Of a DNA stretch of 64,000 nt, positions 2,813 to 64,000 are shown in pieces. The notes below the pieces were generated by a model, which did no database searches, had not been told where the DNA came from, and saw nothing but the letters and a program-made list of their open reading frames with translations. The position numbers and the translations under genes were made by a program. The number at the start of each line of letters is the position of its first letter. The stretch's first letter is position 1. The stretch covers positions 1 through 64,000 of the forward strand of contig JAIOHL010000157.1 of the NCBI GenBank assembly GCA_019913005.1, written 5' to 3'. Source of the DNA: Anaerolineae bacterium (lineage in GTDB: Bacteria > Chloroflexota > Anaerolineae > Aggregatilineales > J027).

Positions 2813-2823
2813 TTATATGGAAT

Positions 2824-2866: not shown

Positions 2867-2867
2867 G

Positions 2868-3722: not shown

Positions 3723-3743
3723 AGGTTATTTCTCCCTGCCTGC

Positions 3744-3771
3744 TTGACAAGTCACAATAGATTTTTATAAG
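3744..3771 (+). promoter_or_regulatory. housekeeping-type promoter of the ABC transporter gene
   Basis: TTGACA at 3744-3749, a 16-base spacer and TATAAG at 3766-3771. Transcription would begin near 3778, leaving about 80 bases of leader before the ATG at 3859; the earlier in-frame ATG at 3784 would be almost leaderless, so the promoter supports the later start. Confidence 0.6.
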
Positions 3772-3858
3772 AAAATCGCTGAAATGGGAACATCAGCGGT
3801 GTATTGTCGTATTATGATTGTTGCGAATTCTATATTGGGTTCCCTGCAAAGGAGCGAA

Positions 3859-6186: not shown

Positions 6187-6312
6187 GCCGCCAGCCCTCC
6201 TGTACAGCGATGACATCCTCTGAGGCTGTTTAGTCTTGGGGATGTTACGGTTTGTTACAGTCCCCACCGATTTTTCATCATAAATGAATTTGCCATCATG
6301 CGACTAGGGACT

Positions 6313-7236
6313 TTAGGCGGATTTTATGACGGGTGGGCGTGATCCCTTGGTGGGGACAAGAATGGTGACGGCTTTTGGCAAGACTTGTATATCAATTTTA
6401 TTGAACTTGACCAGTTCCCCATCGCAGACCATTGGTTGGGGCGGGTCGGCGATAATCGAGGCTTTCCGTACCTGCCACTGCTGCAATGGGCCAGCGAGTT
6501 CCCCCAAAAAAACGGCTCCAGCGGCAGCAGACAAAACGGTTCGTAGATTGACCTCTTGAATGACTAACACATCTAGCAGACCATCACTGATGTCTATGGC
6601 ATGTGATAATTTGAGTTCACCGACTCCCACACTGCCAAAGGTTGTGACCATGCAGTTGATTCCATCAATTTCAATCTTTTCGCCATCTAATTCCAGATGA
6701 TAGTGGGTGGTAGGGAAATTACGTAGATTTTTAAGGGCGGCATTCACATAGGCGAAAATACCATTGCGATTTTTGGCTTCGCGGTCTGCTTCCTTGTTCA
6801 TTTCGGCTTCAAGGCCCATACCTAAATGAAAAAATGCTTGGTCGCCGACCATGCCCATATCAATCGCTTTGGGGGTGCTGCGACTGCTATCTAATAGGGA
6901 GATTGCCTGAGAAAAATCACGCGGGATGCCCAGTTCGATGGATAACACGTTGGCTGTACCGCCCGGTAGAATGAGTAAGGGAATTTGACTGTTCCGCAGG
7001 CCATTGGCGACCTCGCGCACCGTGCCATCGCCACCATAGGCCGCGACAGCATTTACCCCGGCTTCAACGGCGGCTTGGGCAAAACGATTGGCATCGCCAG
7101 ACTGCTTGGTGATAAACATTTCCCAGTCCACTTTGAGTGTATTCAGGGTATCATTTAACGTCTTTAAAAAAGGCTCATCGCGGCCTGCTGCTGGGTTGAC
7201 GATGATATGCACCTTTTGATAACGTGTAGAGGGCAT
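6313..7236 (-). CDS. diacylglycerol/sphingosine-type lipid kinase (YegS/DgkB family)
   Basis: A 307-residue cytosolic lipid kinase. The N-terminus VHIIVNPAAGRDE and the nucleotide loop VAAYGGDGTVREVANGL, followed by LLILPGGTANVLSIELGIP, are the diagnostic G-G-D-G-T and P-G-G-T-x-N motifs of the DAGK catalytic domain. C-terminal half contains the beta-sandwich with the conserved D-I-S-D-G-L-L-D-V-L-V element. It would phosphorylate diacylglycerol or a related lipid to the phosphate form. The ATG at 7236 is preferred; a GTG at 7254 lies too close to its AGGGA. It is divergent from an App1-like phosphatidate phosphatase gene 66 bases away, which would catalyse the reverse step. Confidence 0.92.
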   Translation of the reverse strand: MPSTRYQKVHIIVNPAAGRDEPFLKTLNDTLNTLKVDWEMFITKQSGDANRFAQAAVEAGVNAVAAYGGDGTVREVANGLRNSQIPLLILPGGTANVLSIELGIPRDFSQAISLLDSSRSTPKAIDMGMVGDQAFFHLGMGLEAEMNKEADREAKNRNGIFAYVNAALKNLRNFPTTHYHLELDGEKIEIDGINCMVTTFGSVGVGELKLSHAIDISDGLLDVLVIQEVNLRTVLSAAAGAVFLGELAGPLQQWQVRKASIIADPPQPMVCDGELVKFNKIDIQVLPKAVTILVPTKGSRPPVIKSA

Positions 7237-7302
7237 ATTTTGGCTTTTCCTCACTCCCTAGATTTGGATATGCTTTAGGGACATTATAACGCGGGAGATC
7301 GC

Positions 7303-8469
7303 ATGGCGGATTTAAAAGCTAGTTTTCGACGATTAGCTATCTCAATCGAAAATCGAGTGGATCGCTTGTGGCGTGGTCAAAAGGAGTTTGGCCCCCTCAC
7401 TATCTTACCTTATCTCGGTCATGGAACCAGTAAAATGCTGCATCTCAAAGGGCGGGTCGTGGCCGATTATCGTGTAACCAGCCCATTGGAAACGGATAGC
7501 GGCTGGAAAAACCTCCAAAATAACTTTCGGCGGTTTCATACCCACGAGATTCCATACGCCAAAGTTCGGGCTTGTTACGGCGATATGGAGCAGGAATTTA
7601 CGGCGAACGATGATGGGTACTTTGCAGTTCACATGGAATTGGGCCAAGCACCCTCTGAGGATCAATTCTGGCATGACGTCAAAATCGAACTGGTTGAGGA
7701 TACTTCCATTCAGGCAACGGGCCGTGTGCTCATTCCGCCGACCCAAATTCAATATGGGGTAATTAGCGATTTGGATGATACTGTCATCAAATCGGATGTG
7801 GTGCAGGTTACGAAACTGTTGACCAATACCTTCCTCCGTAACTCACGCACACGCTTGCCCTTTGCAGGAGTAGCGGCGTTTTATCATGCCTTACAGCAGG
7901 GAACAGTAGGGGGCTTTAATCCAATTTATTACGTCACCAGCGGCATCTGGAATTTATATGATGTGTATCTAGATTTTTTGCAGATACAGGGCATTCCCAT
8001 TGGGCCAATTTTTATGACTGACTTGGGTCTGAGTGAGCAGTATCTCTTTAAGCCGGGTCGTTTTGAGCATAAATTAACCGTCATTCGAGAATTACTCGAA
8101 ACCCATCCTAATCTATCCTTTATTCTCATCGGCGACAGTGGTGAAAAGGACGCCGAAATCTATGGGCAGGTTGCCATAGAGAATCCGGGACGAATATTGG
8201 CAATTTATATCCGCGATGTGAGCCAAAAACGGCGCGATGATGAGGTCAAGGCCATTATTGAGACGGTGCGGGAAAGTGGCACTGAAATTCTGCTGGTAGA
8301 AGATACCATTGCGGCGGCGACCCATGCCATTGAGCGGGGTTATATTAAGCCGGAAACACTCTCTGCGATTCAACAGGCCCAACGTAAAGACACCCCGCCC
8401 TCCAATCCGGTTGAGACACTCCGAAAGGTGGCTAAGGACAAATCAGGAGGCAAGGACAAAACGCTCTAG
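7303..8469 (+). CDS. App1-type phosphatase domain protein (DUF2183)
   Basis: A 388-residue protein. The central segment YGVISDLDDTVIKSDVVQVTKLL carries the D-x-D-x-T motif of HAD-like phosphatases and matches the catalytic domain of yeast App1 phosphatidate phosphatase (DUF2183); FILIGDSGEKDAEIYGQVAIENPGRILAIYIRDV is the conserved second half of that domain. An N-terminal beta-rich region (about residues 40-145) is usual in bacterial members. GGGAG at 7293-7297 supports the ATG at 7303. Its last 27 bases overlap the convergent HAD gene. The lipid substrate is inferred from the family and from the divergent lipid kinase gene. Confidence 0.9.
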   Translation: MADLKASFRRLAISIENRVDRLWRGQKEFGPLTILPYLGHGTSKMLHLKGRVVADYRVTSPLETDSGWKNLQNNFRRFHTHEIPYAKVRACYGDMEQEFTANDDGYFAVHMELGQAPSEDQFWHDVKIELVEDTSIQATGRVLIPPTQIQYGVISDLDDTVIKSDVVQVTKLLTNTFLRNSRTRLPFAGVAAFYHALQQGTVGGFNPIYYVTSGIWNLYDVYLDFLQIQGIPIGPIFMTDLGLSEQYLFKPGRFEHKLTVIRELLETHPNLSFILIGDSGEKDAEIYGQVAIENPGRILAIYIRDVSQKRRDDEVKAIIETVRESGTEILLVEDTIAAATHAIERGYIKPETLSAIQQAQRKDTPPSNPVETLRKVAKDKSGGKDKTL

Positions 8470-9249
8470 GGCTTCAGCGATGCCATCATGGTCGTTGCTG
8501 GCGGTAACATAATCGGCAGATCTTTGCACCTCTGGTTTGGAATTACCCATTGCCACCCCAATCCCCGCCAATTGCAGCATCCCAATGTCGTTTTCACCAT
8601 CCCCAAACGCAATGACATGCTCTGGCGGCATATCCATAAGTTCCAAAAGATGGCTGAGGCCGTCCCCTTTGGATGCGCCGGGGGGTAGCACTTCCAGCAT
8701 GGTATCAAGGGCTTGTACCAACGTCACGACATCTCCAATCTGGTTTTTAAGGTTGGCACGCAGGGCAGTGATCCGCTTTGGCTCGTCAATAAAGGTCAGT
8801 TTATGGACGGGTACGTGGTCAATGATCTGGCGCAGCGGCCCAACGGCTTCCGGTTGCGGTTCATGATAATGCGTCAGGATGTCGGTCTGTGGGCTTTTGT
8901 AGTCGGTTAGGATGCGGGTACCGCTGTAAATAACGGTGGGATACTGGCCTTGCAAGGCGGTTTCAAGCGCGATGTGGGCAGGGTCGGCGGCAAGTGTTTT
9001 TTGGTATAAAACATCACCCTGACCGCTGTACACCGTTAACCCTTGTATGTATACTCCGGGAGTAGTCAGACCTAAATGCTCAATAATATGGAGGGCCGAG
9101 GTGCGGGTTTTTCCGGTGGCAAGTATTAATGGAATACTCCGCTGCATGGCTTCGCGCAGGCATTTCTCGGTACGTTGGCTGATTTCGTGATTGCTATTGA
9201 GTAAGGTTCCGTCCAAATCAGTAACAATGAGCCGGATGGGGGATGCCAT
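8443..9249 (-). CDS. Cof-type HAD-superfamily hydrolase
   Basis: A 268-residue phosphatase with the class IIB HAD layout. Motif I is LIVTDLDGTLLNS with the nucleophile Asp, motif II is LILATGKTR, Lys of motif III lies in ASKGDGLSHLLELM, and motif IV is VIAFGDGENDIGMLQLAGIGVAMGNS. The cap domain is between motifs II and III. Such enzymes dephosphorylate sugar phosphates, pyridoxal phosphate or FMN in the cytosol; the exact substrate cannot be read from sequence. ATG at 9249. Its promoter must lie within the first part of the 205-base gap shared with the exopolysaccharide operon. Confidence 0.92.
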   Translation of the reverse strand: MASPIRLIVTDLDGTLLNSNHEISQRTEKCLREAMQRSIPLILATGKTRTSALHIIEHLGLTTPGVYIQGLTVYSGQGDVLYQKTLAADPAHIALETALQGQYPTVIYSGTRILTDYKSPQTDILTHYHEPQPEAVGPLRQIIDHVPVHKLTFIDEPKRITALRANLKNQIGDVVTLVQALDTMLEVLPPGASKGDGLSHLLELMDMPPEHVIAFGDGENDIGMLQLAGIGVAMGNSKPEVQRSADYVTASNDHDGIAEALERFVLAS

Positions 9250-49265: not shown

Positions 49266-50630
49266 TTAGTTCTTCTTTTCGATAATAAATGTCGGGATGA
49301 CTGAGCCACCCCCCGCCGTTACATTCAATAGCGACTGCGAGGAAATGCGTGTAAGGCAGCCATTGACGTGCTTGCCATGAAAGATATAGGGATCGGTATC
49401 CACCATGCGCCGACGGATAGCGAGTTTGCCAGCTTCCAAATAAGGATATTCACCTTGTCCAATCGAAACCCGTTCTTGGACGACATGGGGTGTATGCAAG
49501 GCTTTGTGAATGGTCGCGTTCCATGTCTCAGAATCGGCCTCCCATCCCAATACCACACCTGACCCTCCATATTCATCATTGGGCTTCAATACTAACTTTT
49601 CACGGTTATCGGCAATAAAGGGGACAAGATCAATGGTCTGCCCATGAAAATAGGTATGGCGTTCACTCACGCGGCGTGTCCAAGGGATATGCGCTTCAAT
49701 CGCGCCGATTTCATCCGAGGTAAAGAGATAGTAATTTTGCTCGTCACTTAGGAGAGCAAAACTGGCCTTTTTCGCCATGAGTTTGGCACTAAACGCATTG
49801 CTCATGCAGACGGCATGATCTTTGATAGCACGAACGATGACGTTATCAACACCCAGCTTGTCAATCAGTTCGGAGGACAGCACACGCTTATAGATGAAAT
49901 CTACGCGAAAGTCTTTGACCCATAGGTGTCCATTGCGATATTCCAATTCCTGCGGATCCGCCAATATAGTAGGACAGCCGTTGGCGATGAAATAATCACG
50001 GCAGATTTCGTGCTCATTATGGGTGGGGAGGTCTTGCCAATCTACAATGCCGATCTGGGGCGTACCTGTGCCACCCCATTCCCGCCACGCATCCTTCAAT
50101 GCGCCTAATAAGCCCGGCTGCACAGGCATACTATGGATGTGGTAATGCTGCTGAAATTGCTTAATCGGCTCTAGTTCCATAAAGGCACTGGCGAGTTCAT
50201 CGGCATAACTCATGCCTGCTGGCGTTTCCGCATTATATTCGACAAAGCGCAAGCTGGGTGGTTGACCGACCTCACGGGTAAAAAAGGAATCCAATCGGGA
50301 GGTTGTCCAAGGGGCTTCATAGCCAATATCAAGGTTAAACAGTTCCTCTTCATAGGCCTCAAGGTCAAGTTGGGCGCGGAGATTCGCATTGGTCATACAA
50401 GCGGCATGGGCTTTCCTGAACGCACCCAGCACGGTTTCGGTTTCATATGCGATATAGGCCCAAAGTTCTTTGGAATAAAACTGAGGACGGAGAACGGTAC
50501 AGAGGGGGCGACTTCCAAAATACAGACGACGGGCGCGGAGGCTCTGATTAAATTTTCCGAATGAGTCGGCGACTAATTGGTCATTCAATAAACTATGATA
50601 GAGTTCAACGGCTTCTTTTGTAACCAACAT
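49266..50630 (-). CDS. circularly permuted ATP-grasp ligase-like protein
   Basis: A 454-residue protein with features of the circularly permuted ATP-grasp (glutathionylspermidine synthase-like) group. RFVEYNAETPAGMSYADELA is the E-x-N-x-x-x-P-x-G segment, DFIYKRVLSSELIDKLG lies mid-protein, and the ATP loop is near the C-terminus in KLVLKPNDEYGGSGVVLGWEAD followed by VVQERVSIGQGEYP. Such enzymes form amide bonds from a carboxylate and an amine with ATP. It is the last gene of a minus-strand group of subtilisin, esterase and ATP-grasp. ATG at 50630 follows AAAGG. Substrate unknown; peptide ligation or peptide tailoring are both possible. Confidence 0.83.
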   Translation of the reverse strand: MLVTKEAVELYHSLLNDQLVADSFGKFNQSLRARRLYFGSRPLCTVLRPQFYSKELWAYIAYETETVLGAFRKAHAACMTNANLRAQLDLEAYEEELFNLDIGYEAPWTTSRLDSFFTREVGQPPSLRFVEYNAETPAGMSYADELASAFMELEPIKQFQQHYHIHSMPVQPGLLGALKDAWREWGGTGTPQIGIVDWQDLPTHNEHEICRDYFIANGCPTILADPQELEYRNGHLWVKDFRVDFIYKRVLSSELIDKLGVDNVIVRAIKDHAVCMSNAFSAKLMAKKASFALLSDEQNYYLFTSDEIGAIEAHIPWTRRVSERHTYFHGQTIDLVPFIADNREKLVLKPNDEYGGSGVVLGWEADSETWNATIHKALHTPHVVQERVSIGQGEYPYLEAGKLAIRRRMVDTDPYIFHGKHVNGCLTRISSQSLLNVTAGGGSVIPTFIIEKKN

Positions 50631-50707: not shown

Positions 50708-51733
50708 TTAGGAAGAGGATTTGGGCTTAGTGGGTTTGGTTTTTGGAGCAACAGCCTTCGTCTTGGGGGCGACGGCCTTGCCCACTTTGGGAGCTTGGGT
50801 CTCTGCCACAACACGCGCCCATTCATAACGATCAGCGGTGCCTTCATTGGATTTCGCCAGTCGGATGGTCATATCGGCCATATGTGTGACCATCCAATCA
50901 AAATGTTTGCGACCCAGTGAATTGACATCCATATCGGGAGCGGGGTTCATAAAATCTATGGCATAGGGCACACCGCCCCGAATGGCAAATTCAACCGTGT
51001 TCATATCATAGCCAAAGGCGCGAACAAGTTTGGTCGCGTCGTCCACCATGCGATTATAAAGTGCGGGTGAAAAATCATGCTCCTCATGATAACGGCGGTT
51101 CTTGGGGTCATATTTCATCACATAGATGTCATTTTGGCCCAAGCACATCAAGCGGGCATAGTTATCCCACTCGATGAATTCCTGCACAATCATAGTCAGC
51201 AGGGCACTGCCGTTATAGCGGAAAATGAGATCATCCATGGTGTTGACGATATACACATCCCGCCAGCCGCCGCCGTGTGCATCTTTTAGCACGCAGGGCA
51301 TCCCAACATAATTGACAATCGCCTGCCAATCCATTGGATAGACCAGATTGCGCAGGCTCTCAGTTTTGACAATGCCGGGGACATAATCTCGATTGGGCAG
51401 GACAATTGTTTTGGGGGATTTTACGCCTAATTGTTCAGCGAGGGATGCGCCAAAAAACTTATCATCGGCTGTCCACATAAAGGGGTCATTGATGACTTTG
51501 ACCCCTTGCAATGCGGCGTTTTTGAGATAGGACCGATAGTAGGGGACTTCATGTGAGATGCGGTCTACAATGACACGATAGGGACAGGGTTCATTCATTT
51601 GTGTGCCCCCGACCTTCACATATTCGGCAATAACCCCTTCATTACGCCGATTGACTTCTTCAATAAATGCTGGCGGCCATGACCATTCGCGTCCCACAAA
51701 CAAACCAATCCGCAGGGGTTCTTTGGATGCCAT
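50708..51733 (-). CDS. ATP-grasp ligase (RimK/D-Ala ligase-like) with basic Pro/Lys tail
   Basis: A 341-residue protein. RIGLFVGREWSWPPAFIEEVNRR is the N-terminal pre-ATP-grasp domain; GVKVINDPFMWTADDKFFGASLAEQLGVKSPKTIVLP and YVGMPCVLKDAHGGGWRDVYIVN carry the ATP-binding elements, and DMNTVEFAIRGGVPYAIDFMNPAPDMD the metal-binding E-x-x-x..D-x-N pattern. The last 25 residues form a basic low-complexity tail with the repeat AVAPKTK. It would join a carboxylate to an amine or alcohol using ATP. ATG at 51733 with AAGGAG seven bases upstream. The esterase gene precedes it by 34 bases. Substrate unknown. Confidence 0.87.
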   Translation of the reverse strand: MASKEPLRIGLFVGREWSWPPAFIEEVNRRNEGVIAEYVKVGGTQMNEPCPYRVIVDRISHEVPYYRSYLKNAALQGVKVINDPFMWTADDKFFGASLAEQLGVKSPKTIVLPNRDYVPGIVKTESLRNLVYPMDWQAIVNYVGMPCVLKDAHGGGWRDVYIVNTMDDLIFRYNGSALLTMIVQEFIEWDNYARLMCLGQNDIYVMKYDPKNRRYHEEHDFSPALYNRMVDDATKLVRAFGYDMNTVEFAIRGGVPYAIDFMNPAPDMDVNSLGRKHFDWMVTHMADMTIRLAKSNEGTADRYEWARVVAETQAPKVGKAVAPKTKAVAPKTKPTKPKSSS

Positions 51734-51767
51734 AAAAACGCTCCTTATCAAAAAATGGTTTTATTCT

Positions 51768-53692: not shown

Positions 53693-53774
53693 TCTAACGA
53701 TGAATGGGGCGAAGTGCTATTGGCTGATTTTCCTGATACACTTGCTTGAAAAACAATTATAAGGAGATTTCTTG

Positions 53775-54980
53775 ATGTCGGAGACCCCCCAAATTACATT
53801 TTTGTGTCTCGCCAGTGAATTTAAGGGGAAAGACCTCATGCGGGAGGCTCATCGTCAGGGCTGCCGGGTCATTTTGATCGCCAAAGAAAAATGGGTCAAC
53901 GAAGATTGGCCGCGTGACAGCATTGACGAAGTGTATTTTATGCCCGACCTATCGAATATGCAGCACGTCATCAACGCGGTGAGTTATCTTTATCGCACTC
54001 GCAAAATTGACCAGATCATCCCTCTTGATGAGTATGATGTGGAGATGGCGGCGATTGTGCGCGAACACCTGCGAATGCCGGGGATGGGGCACAGCGCAGC
54101 TCGTTTTTTCCGCGATAAATTGGCAATGCGAACTCGTGCCCATGAAGCAGGCATTCCGGTACCAGATTTTGTGGGGGTACTCAATCATGACCAGATTCAC
54201 CAGTTTACCGAACGGGTACCCGCCCCTTGGATGCTTAAGCCGCGTACATGGGCTGGGGCAGTCGGCATGAAAAAGATTCAAAACGCCGATGAGTTGTGGC
54301 CGCAGTTGGAATCAATGGGAGATGAGCAGTCGGCCTATCTGCTTGAACGATTTGTGCCGGGGGACGTGTTCCATGTAGATTCGATTGTCAATGATGGGGA
54401 GATTGCGTTTTCGATTGTGCATAAATATGCCAAGCCGCCGCTGAATGTCTCGCATGACGGCGGGGTATTTATGACACGCACCCTCGAACGCGATTCTGCC
54501 GATGCAGTAGCCCTCCGTCAACTGAATATCAAATTATTGCAGGCGTTAGGGATGGGGCGTGGCATCGCCCATGCCGAGTATATCAAAGGTGAGGACAGCA
54601 AATTCTATTTCTTGGAGGTTGCTGCACGGGTAGGGGGAGCGAATATCGCGGATTTGATTGAGGCCGCCACCGGATTAAACCCTTGGGTCGAGTGGGCACG
54701 TATGGAAATTGCCCATTTGCGGGGTGTGCCCTATCAATTGCCCAAAGTGCGCGAAGATTACGCCGGAATTGTGATCTCGCTGGCACGCCAAGAATATCCC
54801 GACACCTCGGCCTATAATGATCCTGAAGTCGTCTGGCGCTTGAACAAAAAATATCATGCCGGCATGATTGTTGCATCTCCAAGCGCGGATCGGGTGATGG
54901 AACTGCTCAACAGCTATGCCCAGCGGATTACCCAAGATTTTTCGGCGGTGGCGGACTATTGGCAGCGCCCCCCGGCTTAA
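53775..54980 (+). CDS. ATP-grasp domain enzyme (carboxylase/ligase type)
   Basis: A 401-residue ATP-grasp protein of the biotin carboxylase/PurK-like type. ITFLCLASEFKGKDLMREAHRQGCRVILIAKE is the N-terminal Rossmann-like domain; FRDKLAMRTRAHEAGIPVPDF, PWMLKPRTWAGAVGMKKI and AYLLERFVPGDVFHVDSIV are ATP-binding elements, and FYFLEVAARVGGANIADLIEAATG the catalytic metal-binding segment with E and the G-G-A-N loop. The ATG at 53775 follows AAGGAG by eight bases; a TTG just before it also exists. It would activate a carboxylate as acyl phosphate for ligation. Divergent from the subtilisin operon, suggesting shared control. Confidence 0.9.
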   Translation: MSETPQITFLCLASEFKGKDLMREAHRQGCRVILIAKEKWVNEDWPRDSIDEVYFMPDLSNMQHVINAVSYLYRTRKIDQIIPLDEYDVEMAAIVREHLRMPGMGHSAARFFRDKLAMRTRAHEAGIPVPDFVGVLNHDQIHQFTERVPAPWMLKPRTWAGAVGMKKIQNADELWPQLESMGDEQSAYLLERFVPGDVFHVDSIVNDGEIAFSIVHKYAKPPLNVSHDGGVFMTRTLERDSADAVALRQLNIKLLQALGMGRGIAHAEYIKGEDSKFYFLEVAARVGGANIADLIEAATGLNPWVEWARMEIAHLRGVPYQLPKVREDYAGIVISLARQEYPDTSAYNDPEVVWRLNKKYHAGMIVASPSADRVMELLNSYAQRITQDFSAVADYWQRPPA

Positions 54981-55061: not shown

Positions 55062-55949
55062 ATGGCGAAGCAAAACGTGCTTGACCCTGAGATTTTAGAG
55101 CGCTTCACTCGGTTGTCGTCCAATTCCCAACAGCTCGAGACGGTCTTAAGCCGTCTGTTTCAACAGCTTGCCTCGCATGGTGTCCAGATTTCATTAGACA
55201 TCAGCGGCATGATGCAGAATATTCGCCGTGATGTGGACGGAATCGAAAAATCCAGCCGCCGCCTCTCCACCGAACGGGGTCAGTTGGAAGAATTGGTGCG
55301 TACCAGTGCCTTAATTACGTCGTCGTTGGAACTAGACCGTGTTTTGCAAGACGTCATGGATACGGTGATTGCATTGACAGGGGCGGAACGTGCATATCTG
55401 CTGTTGAAAGAGAAGCGTAGTGGCGAATTGAAATTCCGCGCCGCCCGTAACTGGGATCAGGAAAATTTGGCGGATGACGAGGCGGTGTTTAGCCGGAGTG
55501 TGGTCAGTGCGGCATTGGAACAAGGTGAGGCTATCATCACTACTAACGCTCAGGCTGATGAACGTTTTAAGCAGAACGCTAGTGTCGCCGCACATGGCCT
55601 GCGCTCCATTATGTGTATTCCATTGATGGTGCGCGGCGAAGGGGTAGGGGTGCTTTATACGGACAACCGTATCGAGCAGGGAGTTTTTGACCCGCGTGAT
55701 ATTCCCCTCTTGACCGCGTTTGGGACGCAAGCGGCTATCGCTATCGAAAACGCGCAGAATTTCACCAAGGTGAAAGATGACTTGAATAAAGCCCGGCAAG
55801 AGGTCGAGCGCCTGCAAATCCAGATTGATCAAGCGAAGGTGATGGAGCAGGTGAATGAAATTACCGATAGTGACTTCTTCCAGAGCTTAACGGCACAGGC
55901 AAAAGCCATGCGGAAACAGTTTGATGCGAGTGATAAACCCTCGTCGTAA
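55062..55949 (+). CDS. coiled-coil GAF-domain sensor protein
   Basis: A 295-residue cytoplasmic protein. Residues 10-85 are helical and probably coiled-coil (LSSNSQQLETVLSRLFQQLASHGVQIS; IRRDVDGIEKSSRRLSTERGQLEELV). A GAF domain spans about 90-240 (ITSSLELDRVLQDVMDTVIALTGAERAYLLLKEK, SIMCIPLMVRGEGVGVLYTDNRIEQGVFDPRDIPLLTAFGTQAAIAIENAQ), followed by another coiled segment. It has no kinase or DNA-binding output, so it likely regulates a partner. It follows the ATP-grasp gene by 81 bases on the same strand. Confidence 0.88.
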   Translation: MAKQNVLDPEILERFTRLSSNSQQLETVLSRLFQQLASHGVQISLDISGMMQNIRRDVDGIEKSSRRLSTERGQLEELVRTSALITSSLELDRVLQDVMDTVIALTGAERAYLLLKEKRSGELKFRAARNWDQENLADDEAVFSRSVVSAALEQGEAIITTNAQADERFKQNASVAAHGLRSIMCIPLMVRGEGVGVLYTDNRIEQGVFDPRDIPLLTAFGTQAAIAIENAQNFTKVKDDLNKARQEVERLQIQIDQAKVMEQVNEITDSDFFQSLTAQAKAMRKQFDASDKPSS

Positions 55950-55969
55950 GGGATTTCGACGGGATGAAT

Positions 55970-56003
55970 AAGGGCAACCCCATATGATAGGCCGCCCTTT
56001 TTA
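55970..56003. terminator. bidirectional terminator between GAF gene and precursor peptide 1
   Basis: AAGGGC (55970-55975) pairs with GCCCTT (55994-55999), with TTTTT following on the plus strand and TTATT on the minus. It separates two convergent genes and could serve both. Confidence 0.6.
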
Positions 56004-56036
56004 TTTCATACTGCTTGGTTGAAAAGCGATCCGAGA

Positions 56037-56279
56037 TTAGCCCTCGGCGTCACCATAGCCGCCCTCGTCTTCACGGACGCGGCTGAAGCCAGTGCCACCC
56101 GCAACCATGTCGAGCAGGTCTTCGGGCAGTTCATCATTAGCGAGGCTAATTTCTTCTTGATAGGCCATCACTGCGGCTTTGTAGTCGGCCATGCTGATAC
56201 GCGCCGTCTTGCTGATTTCTTCAAAGGTTGCTACGCCATTGGTTTTGCGCAGATATTCCAGAACAATTGTCTTGGACAT
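56037..56279 (-). CDS. putative RiPP precursor peptide 1 (short Nif11-type leader, Cys-free core)
   Basis: An 80-residue peptide. The leader (about residues 1-60) begins MSKTIVLEYLRKTNG, includes MADYKAAVMAYQEE and ends in the double-glycine-type motif DELPEDLLDMVAGG (Gly61-Gly62), the form of Nif11-like leaders. The 18 residues after it follow the pattern T-G-F-S-x-V-R-x-D with a terminal D-A-E-G, shared with the second peptide. The core has Thr1, Ser4, Tyr13 and five acidic residues but no Cys, so thioether rings cannot form. AAGGA lies nine bases before the ATG. It is shorter than peptide 2 by loss of an internal leader segment. Which enzyme acts on it is unproven. Confidence 0.8.
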   Translation of the reverse strand: MSKTIVLEYLRKTNGVATFEEISKTARISMADYKAAVMAYQEEISLANDELPEDLLDMVAGGTGFSRVREDEGGYGDAEG

Positions 56280-56467
56280 AGAGGGATTCCTTTGCTAACT
56301 AGAGTTCCATAAAGTCACGCTTGAGTCGTTTTGTAAAACGAAAAAGTGTTCAAAATAAATCTGACCTTGCTTGAATCATACACGATTTCCGCTTAGTTTA
56401 GTATAAAAACTAGGGATTTTTCATGAAATATTTACGAGTTTCACAGGGCTTAGTACCAAATAGGGCG

Positions 56468-56499
56468 GTGGCGCAGTCAATCAAGGGTCTCTGCGCCAC
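56468..56499. other. perfect hairpin between the two precursor genes
   Basis: GTGGCGCAG (56468-56476) and CTGCGCCAC (56491-56499) form a 9-base stem with a 14-base loop, 18 bases past the stop of precursor 2. No T-tract follows on the minus strand, so RNA stabilisation or processing is more likely than termination. The rest of the 237-base gap is AT-rich and holds no other gene. Confidence 0.6.
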
Positions 56500-56516
56500 A
56501 GTGGAGATGGGCTTTT

Positions 56517-56798
56517 TTAGCCCTCAGCGTCACTTGTATTTGTCGCGCTGTCATCCAAACGTACACCGCTGAAGCCAGTACCCCCCGCGATCATGTCCAA
56601 TACATCTTCGGACAGTTCATCGGAGGCCAGTTCTTGGAAGGCAGATACAGCGGCTTTGTAATCGGCTGCGCTGAAGTCGAAACCTGAACTCTTGGCAATT
56701 TTCAGCATGGCATCCATCGAGGCGGAACGGATCTTTTCTTGGATGGCCTTGTCAGTTGCTGCTTTTTGCAGGAATTGAAGGGCAATTTGTTTAGACAT
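56517..56798 (-). CDS. putative RiPP precursor peptide 2 (full Nif11-type leader, Cys-free core)
   Basis: A 93-residue peptide. The leader is a standard Nif11-type domain: MSKQIALQFLQKAATDKAIQ, then MLKIAKSSGFDFSAADYKAA and DELSEDVLDMIAGG, with Gly72-Gly73 as the likely cleavage point. The 20-residue core keeps the T-G-F-S-x-V-R-x-D start and the D-A-E-G end of peptide 1, with an S/T-rich middle (Ser11, Thr13, Thr15, Ser16) and no Cys. AGGAG is eight bases before the ATG. The 326-base gap upstream, to the kinase gene, must hold its promoter; I could not identify a convincing one. Ser/Thr dehydration, ester/amide crosslinking through Asp/Glu, or both, are chemically possible. Confidence 0.85.
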   Translation of the reverse strand: MSKQIALQFLQKAATDKAIQEKIRSASMDAMLKIAKSSGFDFSAADYKAAVSAFQELASDELSEDVLDMIAGGTGFSGVRLDDSATNTSDAEG

Positions 56799-57074
56799 AA
56801 CAATTCTCCTATCAGTATGGTGTTGAGCGATAGATGGCTATTCTATTCTCAGAAATAGATCGGTTGTGGCTATCTACCACTGAACAGTACCGAACGATTT
56901 CCAGTTTGCATGTGACATAATTTTTGTCGTGAATAGTCCTAAAAAAGCGCTGCGTTTCTAACTCAACGGCTTTCCTATGACTAAGTGACTGGTATTTAAA
57001 AGTATTCTACACCATTTTCCAAGCACAACCTGTTTCTCCACGAATTTTTCATAAGACATTTTCTTTTCGTTAAC

Positions 57075-57104
57075 AAAAAGGACAGCCCTAAGCCATCCTT
57101 TATT
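57075..57104 (-). terminator. intrinsic terminator of the kinase-WD40 gene
   Basis: On the minus strand AAAGGA and TCCTTTTT pair around GGCTTAGGG-type loop sequence about 20 bases after the stop codon, ending in a run of five T. It separates the giant kinase gene from the precursor genes, which therefore need their own promoter. Confidence 0.6.
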
Positions 57105-57124
57105 TAAGCCATATGAATCGGATG

Positions 57125-60100
57125 CTAATTCAAAGTGTCACTGGTTGTGCCTTCGTCTTCTGGTGCAATTGCTACGGGCAAGCCATACCGCTGGCGTTCT
57201 TCATCGGTGAGGGGGGTCACATCTCGATTGGCCTCGACCCATTGCAAAAGCTCGTCCAGCGTGCCGAGTGTCTGCCACAGCCGTATCGTTTGATCTTCCC
57301 CCGCCGACAAAAAGGTTTGACCTTCGGCAATGAAATAAGCGCCTGCCACAATGCCTTCATGTCCATCGTAGAGGCGGGTTTGTTGACCAGTGGCGACATT
57401 CCAGAGGCGTATCGTGCCATCATCACCCGCTGAGAGCATAAAACTACCATCCCCACTCAGGATGGCACTTTCGACTGCGCCCGTATGCCCACGAAATTCA
57501 CGAATCTTAGTCCCCGTCGTCGCATCCCACAAAATGACGTTGTTGTCCGCCGAGCCGGATAACAACTGCGTTCCATTGGCGTTAAATACAAGGCTTCTGA
57601 CCAGATTGGTATGCCCTTCGCTAAATGCAATATCGAGGGGTTCACCACTGGCCGCATCAAACAGCTTGATTTCACCTGCTGCATTGCCAATCACTAAGGT
57701 GGTTCCATCAGGACTCAGGGCGATACTCCAAATCGTTTCGGATTGTTCCCCAAAATCAATAGCTTCTTCTTCACCAGTCGCCATATTCCACACCCGGACT
57801 CGTTTGGCGGGGTCATTGTCATTACTGCCAGAGTAGAGGCGCGATCCATCGTGGCTAAATACTAGTGCGTTCACTTCACGGGTATGACCTACGAGCCGAT
57901 AAACTTCTTCGCCTGTCTCTAAATTCCAGACGAGAATATCGGCGTTTTCTTCGCCCGCGTCAGTATCGTTAATGGCCCCCGCTGCCCCAAATTTACCATC
58001 AGGGCTAATGGCGACGGAGCGGATTTCGGTTTTATGTCCAGCCAAAGAATAGATGAGGCGGTTTTCGGTAGTATCCCACTGCACCACACTGCCATCTGAA
58101 GTACCCAATAGGGCTTGGGTCTGGGACTGATTTAGGGCGAATACGGTGGTTGGGGCTGTCTGCCCAATACTATTTTGCTGAATTTCGGCCCCATTGACCA
58201 AGTCCCAAATCCGTAACGTAGTATCAAATGACCCAGCGGAAAATCCAGTACGGCCATCAGCGCTGATGGTGGCCCCCAAAACAGCGGAGCCATGCCCGAT
58301 AAAGGTACGAATAGGTTTGCCGCTCTCAACATCCCATAGAATCATCAGGTTATCCCCACCACCAGATAGGGCCGTGCGTCCATCGCTAGTGATACTCACT
58401 GCCCATATTGCATCTGTGTGGGCCTGTTCAAATCGGCGCTCTGTGCCATCTGTAAGGTTATAATACATCACCACTGGATCACCGCCGCCTAAGCCAGCCA
58501 GTGCCCCAGTGCCGTCGGGTGTGAATGCCACACTGAGGAAACCTGTCAGGTCACTGGTGAATTGGCGCTGCTCCTCACCTGTTTCAATGTTCCAAAGACG
58601 CACGGAGTTATCCACCGCGCCACCTGTACCAAAGGGGTCAGCCGAAGCAGACAAGAGCGATTGACCATCGGCACTAACCGCGACACCCCAGACTGGTTTT
58701 TGATGGCCTTCAAAACGTCGAACGATCTCGCCGCTGCCGATGTCCCATATCGCCAGTTCCGTAGAATCCGGGCTAAAATCAGCGTTATTGAGATTATCAC
58801 CACCACCCGACACAAAACCTTTGCCATCTGGCGTGAACGTAATCGTCAGTACCCATTTCACACCCGCTTGGAAGCGTTTAACCTCTGTGCCATCGGCTAG
58901 ATTCCAAAGGATGATTACACCATCAGCATCACACGAAAGGGCCTGTGTACCGTCGGGGCTAAAGGCGACATCCCAGACTGCGGCAGTATGACCTGTGAGG
59001 GTGTGAATCACCTGTCCGGTCTCTAAATCCCAATATTTAACGCTGGTATCTGCGGCTTCACCAAACGGATTACCCGATGAAGCGAGGCCATACAGACCAT
59101 CGGCACTGATAGCGGTTGCCAATGTCACATCGGTTTCCATCAATACATGGCGCGTACCGGGCGTGACAGCAGCATTAAACAGGGCATTTTCGGCAAGTGC
59201 ATTGGGGGAGGGGATAGCCACAGCTTCCATCCCCAGTGCAATTGCCGTATTGACGGCGTTCTCTTGGAGGGCTTGCTGCGAATAATAGGCTAAGGAAAGG
59301 CTGCGAGCCTCTTGCTCACTGGCTTCCGCTTGCCCTTGTGCGACGACTGCTGTTGCCGCATTATATTCGGCTTGGCCCTGCGCAATAGTTGCGGTGGCGG
59401 CGTTATCCTCGGCATCAGCGCGTGCTTCCTGTGCCTCGGCTCGTTGATAGAGGGCGATGGCGGTGAGAATAATCCCCATCAATGCGACCCCTGCGGCGAC
59501 GGTAGCGGCAATCGAGCGATTCCGCGAACGCCGTTTCAATTCCAGTTCCTTAGCCTTACGAGCTTCTTCCTCGGTGGCACGGGCTTCGCGTTCTATCACA
59601 CTTGCCTGCACAAATTCACGTTCTTCTTGGCTAAGGGCAATATCCCCGCTTGCGAGCAACTGCTCGAATTGACCGAGGCGTACCCCGCTGGCAAGGAAAC
59701 TGCGATCTCGCTTGGAATTGAGCCATTCATCGGTGGCTTGGCTCAAGCGGCGCTGCAATAGCAAATCTTCGCGGCTGTCATTGAGCCATTCACGCAGTCG
59801 TTCCCATTTACGAATCAGGGCTTCATGTGCGACGGTAATGGTAGGTTCGCGTGTGGCGGGGTCGGCGTCGGTGGTGAGCAGGCGATAACGAGTGAAAGCA
59901 TCCATAACCGTTTGCATCTGGTCTTGGTCGGCGGCAACCGAAAACAACTCGGCCCAACGTACCCGACGGCGAGTATCTTCTGTGCCTTCGCCAAGTGTGA
60001 CCATGCGGAGGAACAATTGACGCACGGTGGCTTGTTGATCGGCATTCATTTCGTTATACAAATCTTCGGCCCGCCGCGCCAATGCCCCTAATGCACCCCC

Positions 60101-61873
60101 GCTCTCTTGATAGGCTTCTAAGCTGAGGGTGCGCCCCTTGCGCCGTTCAAAGACTTCAGTCAGGGCGTATTGCAGCAAAGGCAAAGCCCCCGCTTCACCG
60201 CTGACATCACCGACCACCGCCGCAATCAGTTTTTCATCTACCGTCATACCGACCCGATGGGCTGGCCCGACAATCGCCTCTTCCAATTCGGCGGCACCCA
60301 GCGGCAGAACGACTTCAGTACGTTCGCGCATCAGATTACCAAATTCCGGGAAGAGCAGGGGGCGGTCATAAAAATCGGCCCGCAGGGTGGCGATCACCCG
60401 CAGACGGCTTTCGGGGTCAGTGGTGGCGACTAGGAGGCTCTTTAAGAAATGGTCACGTTCTTGCTCATCTTCGGCTTGGGTAAAGACTTCTTCAAACTGG
60501 TCAATAATCAGTACCAACTCGGAATGGTCGTCCGGCAAAATGCGATTGACTGCTTGCACCAGACCGCGTTCATGTTCACGTAATTGGCGGGGCAGGCCGG
60601 GCGGTGGATCAATGGCGACACTTAGCAAGGCTTGGGCCAATTTGCCCACTGGGTGAATCCCCGGCACCATTTCGACATAAAACCAGCGGTCAGAACCCGG
60701 CAGCGTTCCCTTTCGTAAATTTGGCAGCACACCCGCTTTCACTACACTGGATTTACCGCTGCCACTTGGCCCAATCACGGCTAAGAAACGGGCCATTGGG
60801 TGATCTTCCATCAAACGGTTTTGCAAGCGCTCAATCAATTGGCTGCGCCCAAAGAAATCAGCGGCATCGGCTTCTTGGAAAGCCCGCAGACCCTTGTACG
60901 GATTTTCCGGCTCTGGCATCGCAATACCAAGCGCCTCCGCATCAATCGTAATGCGACCGGTTCCTGCGCCCTTGATGGTAAACAAGGGTGAACCTGTTTC
61001 CGTAGTGACGACATCGGTTGAGGGTGTTAATCCGCCAAAAGTCGCGGTCAGATTAACGGCCTTGCGAAATTCTTTGGCAAATTCAATGACATCGGTGAAA
61101 CGTTCGCCGGAGCGTTTGGCGGTAGCCTTTTCAATCACAAGGTCTAAGCCTGCCGGAAGATCGGCGCGGAATTTACGCAGTTCGGGCAGCGGTTCGCCTA
61201 GATGTTTAAAAATAAGTTCGGAGGAGGTCAAATTAGGGCCATAGGGTTGTTCACCCGTCAGCACTTCATACATAACCACACCGAGGCTGTAAATATCGGT
61301 TTGCGGGCTGATCTCTTCGCTGCGAATTTGCTCCGGGGACATATAGGCGGGTGAACCCACCACTGCGCCTTTTTCCTCCGCCCCGTCACCCGATTCCAGA
61401 TTTTTGGCGATACCGAAGTCGGTTAGATAGGCGTTCCCATCTTGATCCAGCAGAATGTTGCCCGGTTTGATGTCGCGGTGGATGACGTTGTTGCGATGGG
61501 CGACGGTCAGTGCAGCAGCCATTTGATCGAGCAGGCGGGCGGCGTTTTCGATATTCCACGCTCCTTGTCGCAAGGAGGATTGTAGACTGCCCCCACGCAG
61601 CCAGCGCATGACCAGATAGGCCCCGTCCGGCTCACGCCAATAATCATATAACGGGACGATATGGAGATGCTCCAACCGGGCAATCAGTTGGGCTTCGGCC
61701 TCAAAATTACGGATAAAATCGGGGTGATTGGCATACTGCGGCAAGATAATTTTGACTGCCACTTCGCGCTTTACAAGGGTTTGAAAGGCACGATAAACCG
61801 CCCCAAAGCCGCCTTGCCCAATCAATTCTTTTAATTCATAGCCCTTAAGCGTTTGACCGCTGAGGTTATCCAT
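57125..61873 (-). CDS. Ser/Thr kinase-STAND NTPase-WD40 signalling protein
   Basis: A 1582-residue multidomain protein. Kinase at about 12-270: G-loop IGQGGFGAVYRAF, Lys41, HRDIKPGN (132-139) and DFG (152-154), all catalytic residues present. STAND-type NTPase (nSTAND1) at about 325-770 with P-loop GPSGSGKSS at 368-376 and LVLIIDQFEEVFTQ as Walker B. One membrane helix near 790-812 (IAATVAAGVALMGIILTAIALY) after a basic coiled region. From about 900 there are 14 WD40 repeats by my count, enough for two seven-bladed propellers, presumably outside the membrane. It senses and transmits a signal by Ser/Thr phosphorylation. It lies 92 bases after the LanM gene on the same strand. Confidence 0.93.
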   Translation of the reverse strand: MDNLSGQTLKGYELKELIGQGGFGAVYRAFQTLVKREVAVKIILPQYANHPDFIRNFEAEAQLIARLEHLHIVPLYDYWREPDGAYLVMRWLRGGSLQSSLRQGAWNIENAARLLDQMAAALTVAHRNNVIHRDIKPGNILLDQDGNAYLTDFGIAKNLESGDGAEEKGAVVGSPAYMSPEQIRSEEISPQTDIYSLGVVMYEVLTGEQPYGPNLTSSELIFKHLGEPLPELRKFRADLPAGLDLVIEKATAKRSGERFTDVIEFAKEFRKAVNLTATFGGLTPSTDVVTTETGSPLFTIKGAGTGRITIDAEALGIAMPEPENPYKGLRAFQEADAADFFGRSQLIERLQNRLMEDHPMARFLAVIGPSGSGKSSVVKAGVLPNLRKGTLPGSDRWFYVEMVPGIHPVGKLAQALLSVAIDPPPGLPRQLREHERGLVQAVNRILPDDHSELVLIIDQFEEVFTQAEDEQERDHFLKSLLVATTDPESRLRVIATLRADFYDRPLLFPEFGNLMRERTEVVLPLGAAELEEAIVGPAHRVGMTVDEKLIAAVVGDVSGEAGALPLLQYALTEVFERRKGRTLSLEAYQESGGALGALARRAEDLYNEMNADQQATVRQLFLRMVTLGEGTEDTRRRVRWAELFSVAADQDQMQTVMDAFTRYRLLTTDADPATREPTITVAHEALIRKWERLREWLNDSREDLLLQRRLSQATDEWLNSKRDRSFLASGVRLGQFEQLLASGDIALSQEEREFVQASVIEREARATEEEARKAKELELKRRSRNRSIAATVAAGVALMGIILTAIALYQRAEAQEARADAEDNAATATIAQGQAEYNAATAVVAQGQAEASEQEARSLSLAYYSQQALQENAVNTAIALGMEAVAIPSPNALAENALFNAAVTPGTRHVLMETDVTLATAISADGLYGLASSGNPFGEAADTSVKYWDLETGQVIHTLTGHTAAVWDVAFSPDGTQALSCDADGVIILWNLADGTEVKRFQAGVKWVLTITFTPDGKGFVSGGGDNLNNADFSPDSTELAIWDIGSGEIVRRFEGHQKPVWGVAVSADGQSLLSASADPFGTGGAVDNSVRLWNIETGEEQRQFTSDLTGFLSVAFTPDGTGALAGLGGGDPVVMYYNLTDGTERRFEQAHTDAIWAVSITSDGRTALSGGGDNLMILWDVESGKPIRTFIGHGSAVLGATISADGRTGFSAGSFDTTLRIWDLVNGAEIQQNSIGQTAPTTVFALNQSQTQALLGTSDGSVVQWDTTENRLIYSLAGHKTEIRSVAISPDGKFGAAGAINDTDAGEENADILVWNLETGEEVYRLVGHTREVNALVFSHDGSRLYSGSNDNDPAKRVRVWNMATGEEEAIDFGEQSETIWSIALSPDGTTLVIGNAAGEIKLFDAASGEPLDIAFSEGHTNLVRSLVFNANGTQLLSGSADNNVILWDATTGTKIREFRGHTGAVESAILSGDGSFMLSAGDDGTIRLWNVATGQQTRLYDGHEGIVAGAYFIAEGQTFLSAGEDQTIRLWQTLGTLDELLQWVEANRDVTPLTDEERQRYGLPVAIAPEDEGTTSDTLN

Positions 61874-61965: not shown

Positions 61966-64000
61966 CTAGAAAGGAATTGAAGGCAGGCGGGTATCGAGCA
62001 TTTTTAGGAGTTCGTAACCGACCCCGGCGCGACCCCCATACAATCCCCATAATTGCACACCTTCTGGCAAGTGGGTCGCAATGCGCCAGCGTCCGGTGGA
62101 TTGGGTAAACACATTTTCGGGAATCCGCCTCGCTTGTTGTTCTGTTAAATCCCGTTCAGGGCTGATGAGCGATTCCACTCGCCGCACATCCTCTAATAAA
62201 CGCGGTTCATCCAGCCATTCTCTGATATGACGCAGGGCATAGGTGATGGATTTGAGACCACTCGGCCCATTGACCCCCAAATTCCGTGCCAGTCTGTGGC
62301 TCAACACTGGATGGTATAGGCGATTTTGCAAAGGCTTAATCGCAGCAAGGGCTAATTCTCGCGCCCCCGGCCAACCCACAACATGATGCAGGGCTGCGAG
62401 GAAAAATGCTACCCCACACGCCCCATCATATAATCCATCGCTGATTTGGCCGAATTGATAACGATTAGCGGCAAAGTGATACGTCAACGTTATCCATGTC
62501 GCGCTACCATCCTCCCCCCAAATCGCCCGTGCCTGTAACTCATCGGCAATTTGACCCGCCTCACTCATCAATAATTCACGGGGGAGGGAGGTGGCGTTCT
62601 GCAAAACTGCGGGTATCTCATCCTCTGTATCAGGTAATTCATGGGCAATACGACAAAACAGTGACCCTCGCATAAACCCAATTTGCTGCTTCAAATCTTT
62701 CTCGCCCATAGAATTAAGTCGTTCAATCACGAGGGTGTAGGCCGGACGGTCAAAGACATTTTCGATGGTGATGTCGCCAATGTGCAGGCTGGTCTCACTG
62801 GAATTGTAGGTCAGCAAGGGCACATCCATCTGTTCCATCGCCTGCGCCTCGCCCTTGTGGATGTCCCAAAAAACGGGTTTTTCATCCCATGCCAGCAGCA
62901 CCCGATTCAGCGATTCAATTTGGATACTGCGATCAATGCCCTCATGTAAATAGCGCGGTTGGAGGGTGTGCTGCAACACGGTTTGATAGGTCTGCGTAGG
63001 TCGGAACACGTATCGCACCCGCTGATTTTTGAACCCTTCCAGTGGGCTACCCTCAGCTAATAATTCTTCCCGATGGGCCATCAAAAAATGGTACATTTCG
63101 GTGAAGCCGTTGATGATTTCGGCTTCATAGTCTTTAGGGGACGTAGCTTCATTACCGAGCGCACTCATATCCACGAACTGCCCATTTGCACCTAATTCCC
63201 ATTTGGGCAGAAATTGCGTTCGTAATACAGAGTTTTCAAGGATGGCATGGGCAGCGGCGCGGGCATCTGGGAAATGGTATTCAATATCGGGGACGCGGTG
63301 GTGCATCAGCGTTTCGGCATCAATCAGAACGGGATATGCAGTGATGTTCATAACATTTTCTGCATGACAGTCATTGGCAGCAAGGGCATGTATTAATCCA
63401 AACATGAATCCTGCCTGCCTGAAAGAAACCTCTAGTATTTTTCTGTGGTTATATTTAAGAGGAAATAATCGTTCGACCCACCCATAGGAATCCATTTCTA
63501 TGAATTTTAAGGTTTTGAGTGGCGATAGGGGATTTGACCATATGTTAAACCATTCCTGTAACTTGGCGAAAGCAACATCTAGCTCAAGAGGACGTGGTTT
63601 ATAAATAATCTCTTGGGCAGGGAATCTTATTCGCATCACAGTTCTTCCATCATGGTGAAAATCCGAAAGACCTGATTGAAGTTGCTCAATAAAAAGATAG
63701 TTCCCTACTATCACGAATTTAAAAATCTCATCAAGGGTTTTGCCATCATCCAATAAACGTAAGAGCATTTCCCAAACGGCTTCAATCCAAAATAACGTGG
63801 TGGTTGCCAATAACCTTGCTAAAACCGAATAATGAGCACAGAAAGATTCAAACTCACCCTTTAGCATTGATTGGACAAAAGCGAGATAATTTTCCTCAGA
63901 TGCTTCGTTAGTTTTAACGAAAGGTGAATCCCTATGTTCTATTGTTTGGAAGGTTTTGAAGGCTACCATCAATCCTCGCGCTGATATTGATGATAGGGTT
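61966..64000 (-). CDS. LanM-type lanthipeptide dehydratase with internally deleted cyclase domain (5' end outside window)
   Basis: The frame is open to the right edge, so the N-terminus is missing. Numbered from the TTG at 63972: residues about 25-430 are a DUF4135 dehydratase, with FESFCAHYSVLARLLATTTLFWIEAVWEML, YKPRPLELDVAF, the D-x-H-x-E-N motif at 201-206 (kinase-like active site in LanM enzymes), and PVLIDAETLMHH. From about 500, a cyclase-like tail keeps the first repeat (GLYDGACGVAFFLAALHH), second (GVNGPSGLKSITYALRHI) and last (GLYGGRAGVGYELLKML), but only 160 residues exist where about 350-400 are usual; the middle, with the zinc-binding Cys, Cys-His, is absent. It would phosphorylate and eliminate Ser/Thr but not close rings. 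Two Cys-free precursor genes lie downstream. Confidence 0.88.
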   Translation of the reverse strand, partial: TLSSISARGLMVAFKTFQTIEHRDSPFVKTNEASEENYLAFVQSMLKGEFESFCAHYSVLARLLATTTLFWIEAVWEMLLRLLDDGKTLDEIFKFVIVGNYLFIEQLQSGLSDFHHDGRTVMRIRFPAQEIIYKPRPLELDVAFAKLQEWFNIWSNPLSPLKTLKFIEMDSYGWVERLFPLKYNHRKILEVSFRQAGFMFGLIHALAANDCHAENVMNITAYPVLIDAETLMHHRVPDIEYHFPDARAAAHAILENSVLRTQFLPKWELGANGQFVDMSALGNEATSPKDYEAEIINGFTEMYHFLMAHREELLAEGSPLEGFKNQRVRYVFRPTQTYQTVLQHTLQPRYLHEGIDRSIQIESLNRVLLAWDEKPVFWDIHKGEAQAMEQMDVPLLTYNSSETSLHIGDITIENVFDRPAYTLVIERLNSMGEKDLKQQIGFMRGSLFCRIAHELPDTEDEIPAVLQNATSLPRELLMSEAGQIADELQARAIWGEDGSATWITLTYHFAANRYQFGQISDGLYDGACGVAFFLAALHHVVGWPGARELALAAIKPLQNRLYHPVLSHRLARNLGVNGPSGLKSITYALRHIREWLDEPRLLEDVRRVESLISPERDLTEQQARRIPENVFTQSTGRWRIATHLPEGVQLWGLYGGRAGVGYELLKMLDTRLPSIPF

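Follow-up and report, generated by a model that had tools for sequence, protein, structure and literature searches.

The window (the whole stretch of DNA analysed here, 64,000 nucleotides in length) corresponds to bases 1-64000 of a 140310-base contig in a draft genome of 7.65 Mb (96.3% complete, 365 contigs). Towards its right end it contains a run of genes, all located on the minus strand: two small ORFs that encode putative precursor peptides, P1 (56037..56279, 80 aa) and P2 (56517..56798, 93 aa), a protein of 1582 aa in which a Ser/Thr kinase is combined with nSTAND1 and WD40 domains (57125..61873; assigned by Pfam and synteny), and a LanM-type synthetase, the window part of which spans 61966..64000. 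The whole lanM gene extends past the window end (contig C55:61966-64497, 843 aa), and the genes beyond it were analysed in locus L004 (contig positions 61900-81000). In the coordinates of this locus, the minus strand continues with the NHLM transporter gene ABC2 (2607-5546; TIGR03797, 977.8 bits, cut-off 709.4), located 8 bases upstream of lanM, followed by ABC1 with a C39 peptidase (5555-7846; TIGR03796, 1143 bits, cut-off 853.3), a protein of 198 residues with no match in Pfam or NCBIfam (7806-8402) and the NHLM HlyD adaptor (8412-9020, 202 aa; TIGR03794, 184.5 bits, cut-off 156.2). An NHLM/NHLP export set is thus recognised, with ABC1, ABC2, and HlyD all scoring above their NCBIfam equivalog cut-offs. 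Read from right to left, the order is HlyD, 198-residue protein, ABC1, ABC2, LanM, kinase-nSTAND1-WD40 protein, P2, and P1, and the successive intergenic distances are 9 bases, an overlap, 8, 8, 92, 326, and 237 bases. A promoter and terminator scan of positions 55900-57150 gave one promoter-like site (2.0 expected) and two terminator-like sites (1.2 expected), which is no support either way.

In an order-wide search, the order of LanM, ABC1, ABC2, HlyD, the kinase-STAND protein, P2, and P1 was identical in four other genomes of the same genus (for G024, just the end of HlyD falls inside the stretch examined), and G025 carries a third precursor at the syntenic block. A scan of genome contigs with the LanM recovered three loci, all from this genus. 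The kinase-nSTAND1-WD40 gene lies between the LanM and the precursors in 5/5 genus genomes, and its product may be a sensor or regulator. The HlyD adaptor of the window's genome is short (202 aa vs. 421 in the TIGR03794 model), and the 198-residue protein has a tblastn match in G024 and none in the stretches of G025, G026, and G027. A restriction-modification pair, consisting of an N6/N4 methylase and a Bpu10I-type endonuclease (Pfam on the G026 copy), separates the two NHLM transporter genes from each other in G026 (L028, 3120-5315) and G024 (L034, 2980-5139); it is absent from this position in the window's genome, G025, and G027. Another Nif11 domain (36.2 bits) of the window's genome forms the N-terminal part of a protein of 338 residues, encoded on contig C53 (L005 1146-2162), which is not a short precursor.

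Both ORFs lie at the positions given in the preliminary description. As this description had proposed, P1 and P2 are paralogues, with 46% identity from end to end (pairwise E 5e-22), and their leaders differ by a 14-residue gap. The leaders end in ELPEDLLDMVAGG (P1) and ELSEDVLDMIAGG (P2), both terminating in AGG, and the cores that follow the double glycine are TGFSRVREDEGGYGDAEG and TGFSGVRLDDSATNTSDAEG, respectively. The same description had assigned a Nif11 leader to both peptides. This holds for P2 (PF07862, 42.4 bits, cut-off 23.8; TIGR03798, 53.5 bits, cut-off 32.3), while P1 matches neither the Pfam Nif11 model nor TIGR03798 and is Nif11-like only through its paralogy with P2. Likewise, the cores had been called Ser/Thr-rich, which fits P2 (6 of 20 residues) and fails for P1, where Thr1 and Ser4 are the only two among 18 residues. 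Both cores lack Cys, as had been noted, and neither has a Lys; Asp and Glu amount to four or five residues per core, with a net charge of -3.

The precursor family comprises 11 peptides in the 5/5 genus genomes searched, and their alignment has 31 invariant columns. Within the core, Thr1, Gly, Phe, Ser, Val, one Asp, and the closing D-x-E-G (a second Asp, Glu, and the last Gly) are identical in 11/11 peptides, one of which has an additional Ser (TGSFS), so the core ends are indeed conserved beyond chance, as had been suggested. Cys is absent from all 11 cores. This absence alone is unremarkable, since with a Cys frequency assumed to be 1% a stretch of 38 residues has an expectation of 0.68 of being Cys-free, and it gains weight only beside the LanM. 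When the window's peptides are compared pairwise with those from three close relatives, each pair of cores differs by 0-1 non-synonymous and 1-6 synonymous changes; for G025, which is distant, core dN is 0.17-0.19 and dS 0.79-1.21 (the core stretch in this count takes in one leader Gly). The precursors are under purifying selection. A profile search of 396 class genomes with the precursor alignment recovered the five genus genomes and nothing convincing in the other 391; a weak match to the core in G277 (E 0.007), located within a frame of 609 residues, was set aside as chance. All five genomes with the core also have this LanM, and the outcome that the preliminary description had named as refuting, a core without a LanM or ATP-grasp neighbour, was not seen among the 396 genomes; such co-occurrence is a weak test because it concerns a single genus in which the whole block is syntenic.

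The synthetase scores 497.7 bits against TIGR03897 (cut-off 304), consists of DUF4135 and a partial LANC_like domain (Pfam), and has sequence matches to LicM2 (6st5) and CylM (5dzt). With 843 residues (893, 893, 892, and 843 in the relatives), it is shorter than the four LanMs of full length that the order search recovered (1070-1136), and the frame is open in 5/5 genus genomes (843-893 residues). In CylM, K274, D347, H349, N352, and D364 are described as the phosphorylation residues and D252, H254, R506, and T512 as those of elimination (PMC4550811). According to the alignment, 9/9 of these catalytic residues are kept in 5/5 genus LanMs, the window counterparts being D279, H281, K300, D376, H378, N381, D393, R495, and T501, with D279, H281, R495, and T501 as equivalents of the elimination residues. 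Of the LanC domain, a remnant persists (LANC_like positions 4-93 matched, with a last turn that aligns with the LicM2 end), and the stretch that carries the three zinc ligands is absent from 5/5 genus LanMs. A PF05147 search gave no further LanC match beyond the LanM remnant in the window's genome, G024, G026, and G027. In G025 it recovered one further, complete LanM; the candidate precursors beside it have 5 and 7 Cys, which provides a control within one genome. In a tree, the window LanM groups with full-length LanMs that carry the CCG zinc motif.

Approximately 48 residues of the dehydratase domain are missing in the LanMs of the window and G026 (DUF4135 positions 226-264 unmatched); this segment is present in the three other genus relatives and in the four full-length LanMs aligned, and due to this gap the window copy may be altered or weak. 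Over lanM codons of about 100-390, i.e. the catalytic segment, the window's gene and that of G026 share 44-58% nucleotide identity with G024, G025, and G027, with sharp borders, compared with 72-95% between the two allele groups over most of the other codons. For the proteins encoded next to lanM, identity between the window and G024 or G027 is 93-99% (partial and end pieces aside). From the sequences, the catalytic segment seems to have been exchanged between the allele groups, with hardly any change in the presumed substrate peptides. An AlphaFold2 model of the LanM of L040 (98.8% identical; 3-row alignment) reached a mean pLDDT of 33.7 and was not used.

In order to see whether loss of the LanC zinc site and lack of Cys go together more widely in the phylum Chloroflexota, loci were chosen by the presence of LanM or DUF4135, irrespective of Cys, in samples of 400 phylum genomes and 154 order genomes, and candidate precursors were picked with a leader pattern blind to Cys. 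The zinc-competent LanMs (45 loci, 13 of them with no candidate precursor) had 70 candidates at 32 loci, and 0/70 were Cys-free. The LanC-less LanMs (12 loci, the window not counted) had 17 candidates, 11 of them Cys-free: nine in the window's own genus, one in G575 (L085), and one in G765 (L086). The six exceptions, with 2 Cys each, all belong to genus g291, so LanC loss and Cys loss are not always coupled; the g291 LanMs have Ser at the Thr512 position and a gap in the P-loop (four rows aligned). Left out of the count were loci with a LanM broken over frames (L087, L088, L091, the second LanM of L092, and L114), L094, where the pattern failed to find one zinc motif, L096 and L097, which run into a contig end, L126, which is zinc-dead and gave no candidate precursor, and L173 and L175, which are either frame-broken or truncated at a contig end, while L092 was kept for its first, zinc-competent LanM. 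One LanM of L125 appeared zinc-less by pattern, an assignment that was rejected as its alignment has WCQG and CHG and it is probably zinc-competent.

The leader pattern misses real precursors (it finds 1/2 at L172 and 0/1 at L174), and two LanC-less loci were also inspected by eye: G903 (L172) has two Pfam Nif11 precursors and G901 (L174) one precursor with no Pfam match, all with Cys-free cores. G765 (L086) and G903 (L172) are independent cases of a LanC-less LanM with a Cys-free Nif11 core, and the Pfam matches of both LanMs are limited to DUF4135. A related case was found in the best match of a plasmid search (165 records, of which this one was examined), a full-length LanM on a Nostoc plasmid in which two of three zinc ligands are lost (C to A, H or C to W); it adjoins Cys-free Nif11 and NHLP precursors. 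At the genus level, Cys-free precursors occur in 5/6 genera with LanC-less or zinc-dead LanMs vs. 0/12 with zinc-competent ones (Fisher p 0.0007; 4/5 and p 0.002 without Nostoc), in a test where the genera were assigned by hand and are not independent, and where g1, g291, and g312 count in both groups through different loci. Parsimony on a tree built from 34 LanMs requires five LanC-less label changes, at least two of them on well-supported branches, which indicates that LanC was lost more than once. LanC-less LanMs are associated with Cys-free precursors, significantly though not perfectly, and the pairing of such a core with a dehydratase-only LanM, which had been put forward for checking, is borne out by the zinc site absent in 5/5 genus LanMs and by 0/70 vs. 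11/17 Cys-free candidates with one exception genus.

Other arrangements were encountered in the same survey. At L172 (7315-10024) and L086 (9297-11739), adjacent Nif11 precursors have strand-like Cys-free cores, e.g. GAKGATIYISRNSVIISVW, and these loci, which come from a different class of Chloroflexota, form a second family in which a LanC-less LanM is combined with Cys-free Nif11 cores. Family f78 (L112, L123, and L089, as well as the frame-broken L092) has two adjacent LanM genes with complementary losses: one has the zinc ligands and lacks the dehydratase motifs by pattern, the other has the dehydratase motifs and lacks the zinc ligands or the LanC part. Judged by these motifs, the pairs look like a division of labour; the candidate precursors of f78 contain Cys. 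At L125, both LanMs have the zinc ligands on alignment despite an f78-like pattern result. In g291 and g312, an HTH / NB-ARC / TPR protein of ~910 residues is encoded between precursor and LanM (L084, 11282-14014; L085, 3307-6042), an arrangement that echoes the kinase-STAND-WD40 gene of the window.

Taken together, we regard it as moderately probable that P1 and P2 give rise to a secreted RiPP with no lanthionine rings, in which Thr1 and Ser4 are dehydrated by the LanC-less LanM and the leader is cleaved by C39 behind GG. We infer enzyme activity, modified sites, cleavage, cap, and function from the genes, and the linkage of the lanM gene to those of P1 and P2 is what suggests that the enzyme acts on them. 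The leader would recruit P1 and P2 to the LanM of the operon, the dehydratase domain of which, presumably active, would phosphorylate Thr1 and Ser4 of the core, and elimination of the phosphate would then leave dehydrobutyrine and dehydroalanine. These two sites are proposed because they are invariant in 11/11 peptides and are the sole Ser/Thr of the P1 core. No thioether rings would form, given that the zinc-binding middle of LanC is gone and Cys is gone from the cores. The ring-free nature of the product is well supported, and a modified peptide lacking lantibiotic rings is to be expected where the ring-closing half of the LanM was lost in step with Cys-free peptides; in this respect, both earlier proposals, i.e. 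that lanthionine is impossible from these cores and that Ser/Thr dehydration is the remaining LanM chemistry, are supported. The C39 peptidase of the NHLM exporter would cleave behind the double glycine, and P1 and P2 are probably secreted. With Thr1 as dehydrobutyrine, the exposed N-terminal enamine would hydrolyse to a 2-oxobutyryl (ketone) cap, by analogy to the alpha-keto end of polytheonamide after the action of PoyF, as described in PMC9505594. The [M+H]+ values calculated for the P1 core are 1901.826 if unmodified, 1883.815 and 1865.805 after loss of one or two waters, 1866.789 if a 2-oxobutyryl end accompanies two water losses, and 2061.759 for the diphosphorylated form; the corresponding values for the P2 core are 1999.884, 1981.873, 1963.863, 1964.847, and 2159.817.

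The main rival to dehydration is phosphorylation, in which the LanC-less LanM would serve as a kinase of the peptides, as for phospeptin, and the mature product would carry phosphothreonine and phosphoserine and no dehydro residues. This we consider possible, if rather unlikely. EmbA/EmbM, the best-studied match in architecture, yields a diphosphorylated peptide despite predicted dehydration, as described in PMC9259500 and PMC9505594, and the window LanM allele lacks ~48 residues of the dehydratase domain. However, 5/5 LanMs here retain the phosphate-elimination residues reported as missing in EmbM (those corresponding to D252, H254, R506, and T512), which makes a phosphopeptide a weaker explanation at this locus. 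The same gap, present in 2/5 genomes, together with the cut-down LanC and the sharp divergence of codons 100-390 between the allele groups (44-58% nucleotide identity), could also mean that the LanM has decayed and that the precursors are exported unmodified or modified by an enzyme encoded elsewhere. A decayed gene is hard to reconcile with the conservation of 9/9 catalytic residues across the two allele groups, the uninterrupted frames (843-893 residues) of 5/5 genomes, and the agreement of the allele groups over most of the remaining gene (72-93% nucleotide identity), and we deem it distinctly improbable.

Two other chemistries have a far lower probability. The preliminary description had considered ester or amide links to Asp/Glu, and three ATP-grasp genes lie at 49-55 kb (49266-50630, 50708-51751, and 53772-54980), 1-8 kb away; in a graspetide-like route, their products would couple acidic core residues (Asp/Glu), through the side chains, with Ser, Thr, or Lys. 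The acidic cores (4-5 Asp/Glu) would suit such a route, and one of the genes (50708-51751) has a weak RimK-family match (26.6 bits, far below the cut-off of 143.4). Nevertheless, the P1 core has no Lys, and the gene surveyed (50708-51751, one of the three) has relatives in 61/154 order genomes vs. 8/154 with a LanM match and five with precursors; as its carriers are mostly devoid of the peptides and other RiPP genes, it is probably unrelated, and the ATP-grasp role, unsupported, appears hardly plausible. It is nearly as doubtful that lanthionine-like or Michael-type rings are closed by a nucleophile other than Cys (the N-terminal amine or Arg), either spontaneously or in the LanC remnant. Dehydro residues are electrophiles, and class III enzymes are described as cyclizing independently of zinc (PMC10676384, PMC10301443), but the central part of the domain is gone from the remnant here, Lys and Cys are absent from both cores, and carnazolamide, the product of a zinc-independent LanM fusion, is reported to have dehydro residues and no rings.

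With its net charge of -3 and its nearly constant sequence, the peptide does not resemble a membrane-active bacteriocin under fast evolution, and signalling is no more than a possibility, raised by the co-encoded STAND kinase. A bolder extension, to which we give little credence, holds that the repeated loss of LanC and Cys delimits a wider class of exported ring-free dehydropeptides, represented here by a ketone-capped acidic signal of 18-20 residues that is read or controlled by the kinase-STAND-WD40 protein. If true, the product of the genus would be 2-oxobutyryl-Gly-Phe-Dha-...-Asp-x-Glu-Gly, and its near-fixed sequence would point to a signal and not to a bacteriocin evolving in an arms race.

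LanMs that lack a cyclase and act with Cys-free precursors have already been published, as described for phospeptin and PoyF, so the locus does not represent a new kind of system. In the open full-text literature (with few subscription journals), we found no report of this locus, nor of elimination-intact LanC-less LanMs with Cys-free Nif11 cores in Chloroflexota. As far as this literature goes, the counted association of LanC-less LanMs with Cys-free precursors over the phylum is new, as is a Nif11-type case that, judged by its residues and gene order, appears elimination-competent, is coupled to NHLM export, and is fixed in a genus. The association ties a genomic change (the zinc site of the LanM gone) to a change in the substrate (Cys gone) and thereby predicts LanM clusters that make ring-free dehydro- or phosphopeptides. 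Such clusters would be missed by core mining that requires Cys, as outlined in PMC10105419, and LanMs like those of L086 and L172 by a pipeline that starts from the LanC domain, as outlined in PMC7268733.

Compared with class II lanthipeptides, the locus has the dehydratase domain and its residues and lacks the LanC with three zinc ligands and the core Cys. Prochlorosins, as described in PMC10783134, share the combination of a Nif11 leader and a LanM, but ProcM makes lanthionine rings, while the window has neither zinc site nor Cys. In the dehydrazole enzyme CcaM (LanMbC), as described in PMC10676384, a LanM dehydratase is likewise joined to a domain without zinc ligands and yields dehydro residues and no lanthionine. 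Unlike the window LanM, the LanC domain of which is internally deleted and incomplete, CcaM has a complete class III-type cyclase domain that is needed for activity, is leader-independent, and requires azoles made by a YcaO; no YcaO was found among the neighbouring proteins scanned (Pfam, NCBIfam). Within Chloroflexota, a table entry of PMC3951391 lists a Herpetosiphon gene with DUF4135 only, located beside LanT, which is similar in being a DUF4135 protein not named as LanM. PoyF of the polytheonamide pathway, known here by its description (PMC9505594), is a cyclase-less LanM-type dehydratase that acts on a Thr at the core N-terminus, and removal of the leader then yields the alpha-keto end; the window shares the combination of a LanM dehydratase lacking a cyclase with a Thr immediately behind the leader. 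It differs in its proteusin (nitrile-hydratase-like) leader, many other maturases, and a separate cysteine protease, PoyH, whereas the window has a Nif11 leader, a C39 exporter, and no other RiPP maturase recognised among the scanned neighbours. Phospeptin from 'Ca. Eudoremicrobium malaspinii', described with phosphothreonines at Thr3 and Thr4 (PMC9259500, PMC9505594), has a Nif11-type leader, a Gly-Gly site, a Cys-free precursor, and a LanM-like maturase without a working cyclization domain, and this architecture of Nif11 leader, Cys-free core, and cyclase-less LanM-like maturase is the one found for P2. The C39-type protease LahT150 served to cleave EmbA. EmbM, compared here through its published description only, is reported to lack the elimination residues, whereas the window LanM keeps D279, H281, R495, and T501; in addition, the core Thr of the window follows directly after GG, a LanC remnant persists, and the NHLM set and the STAND kinase are part of the gene run.
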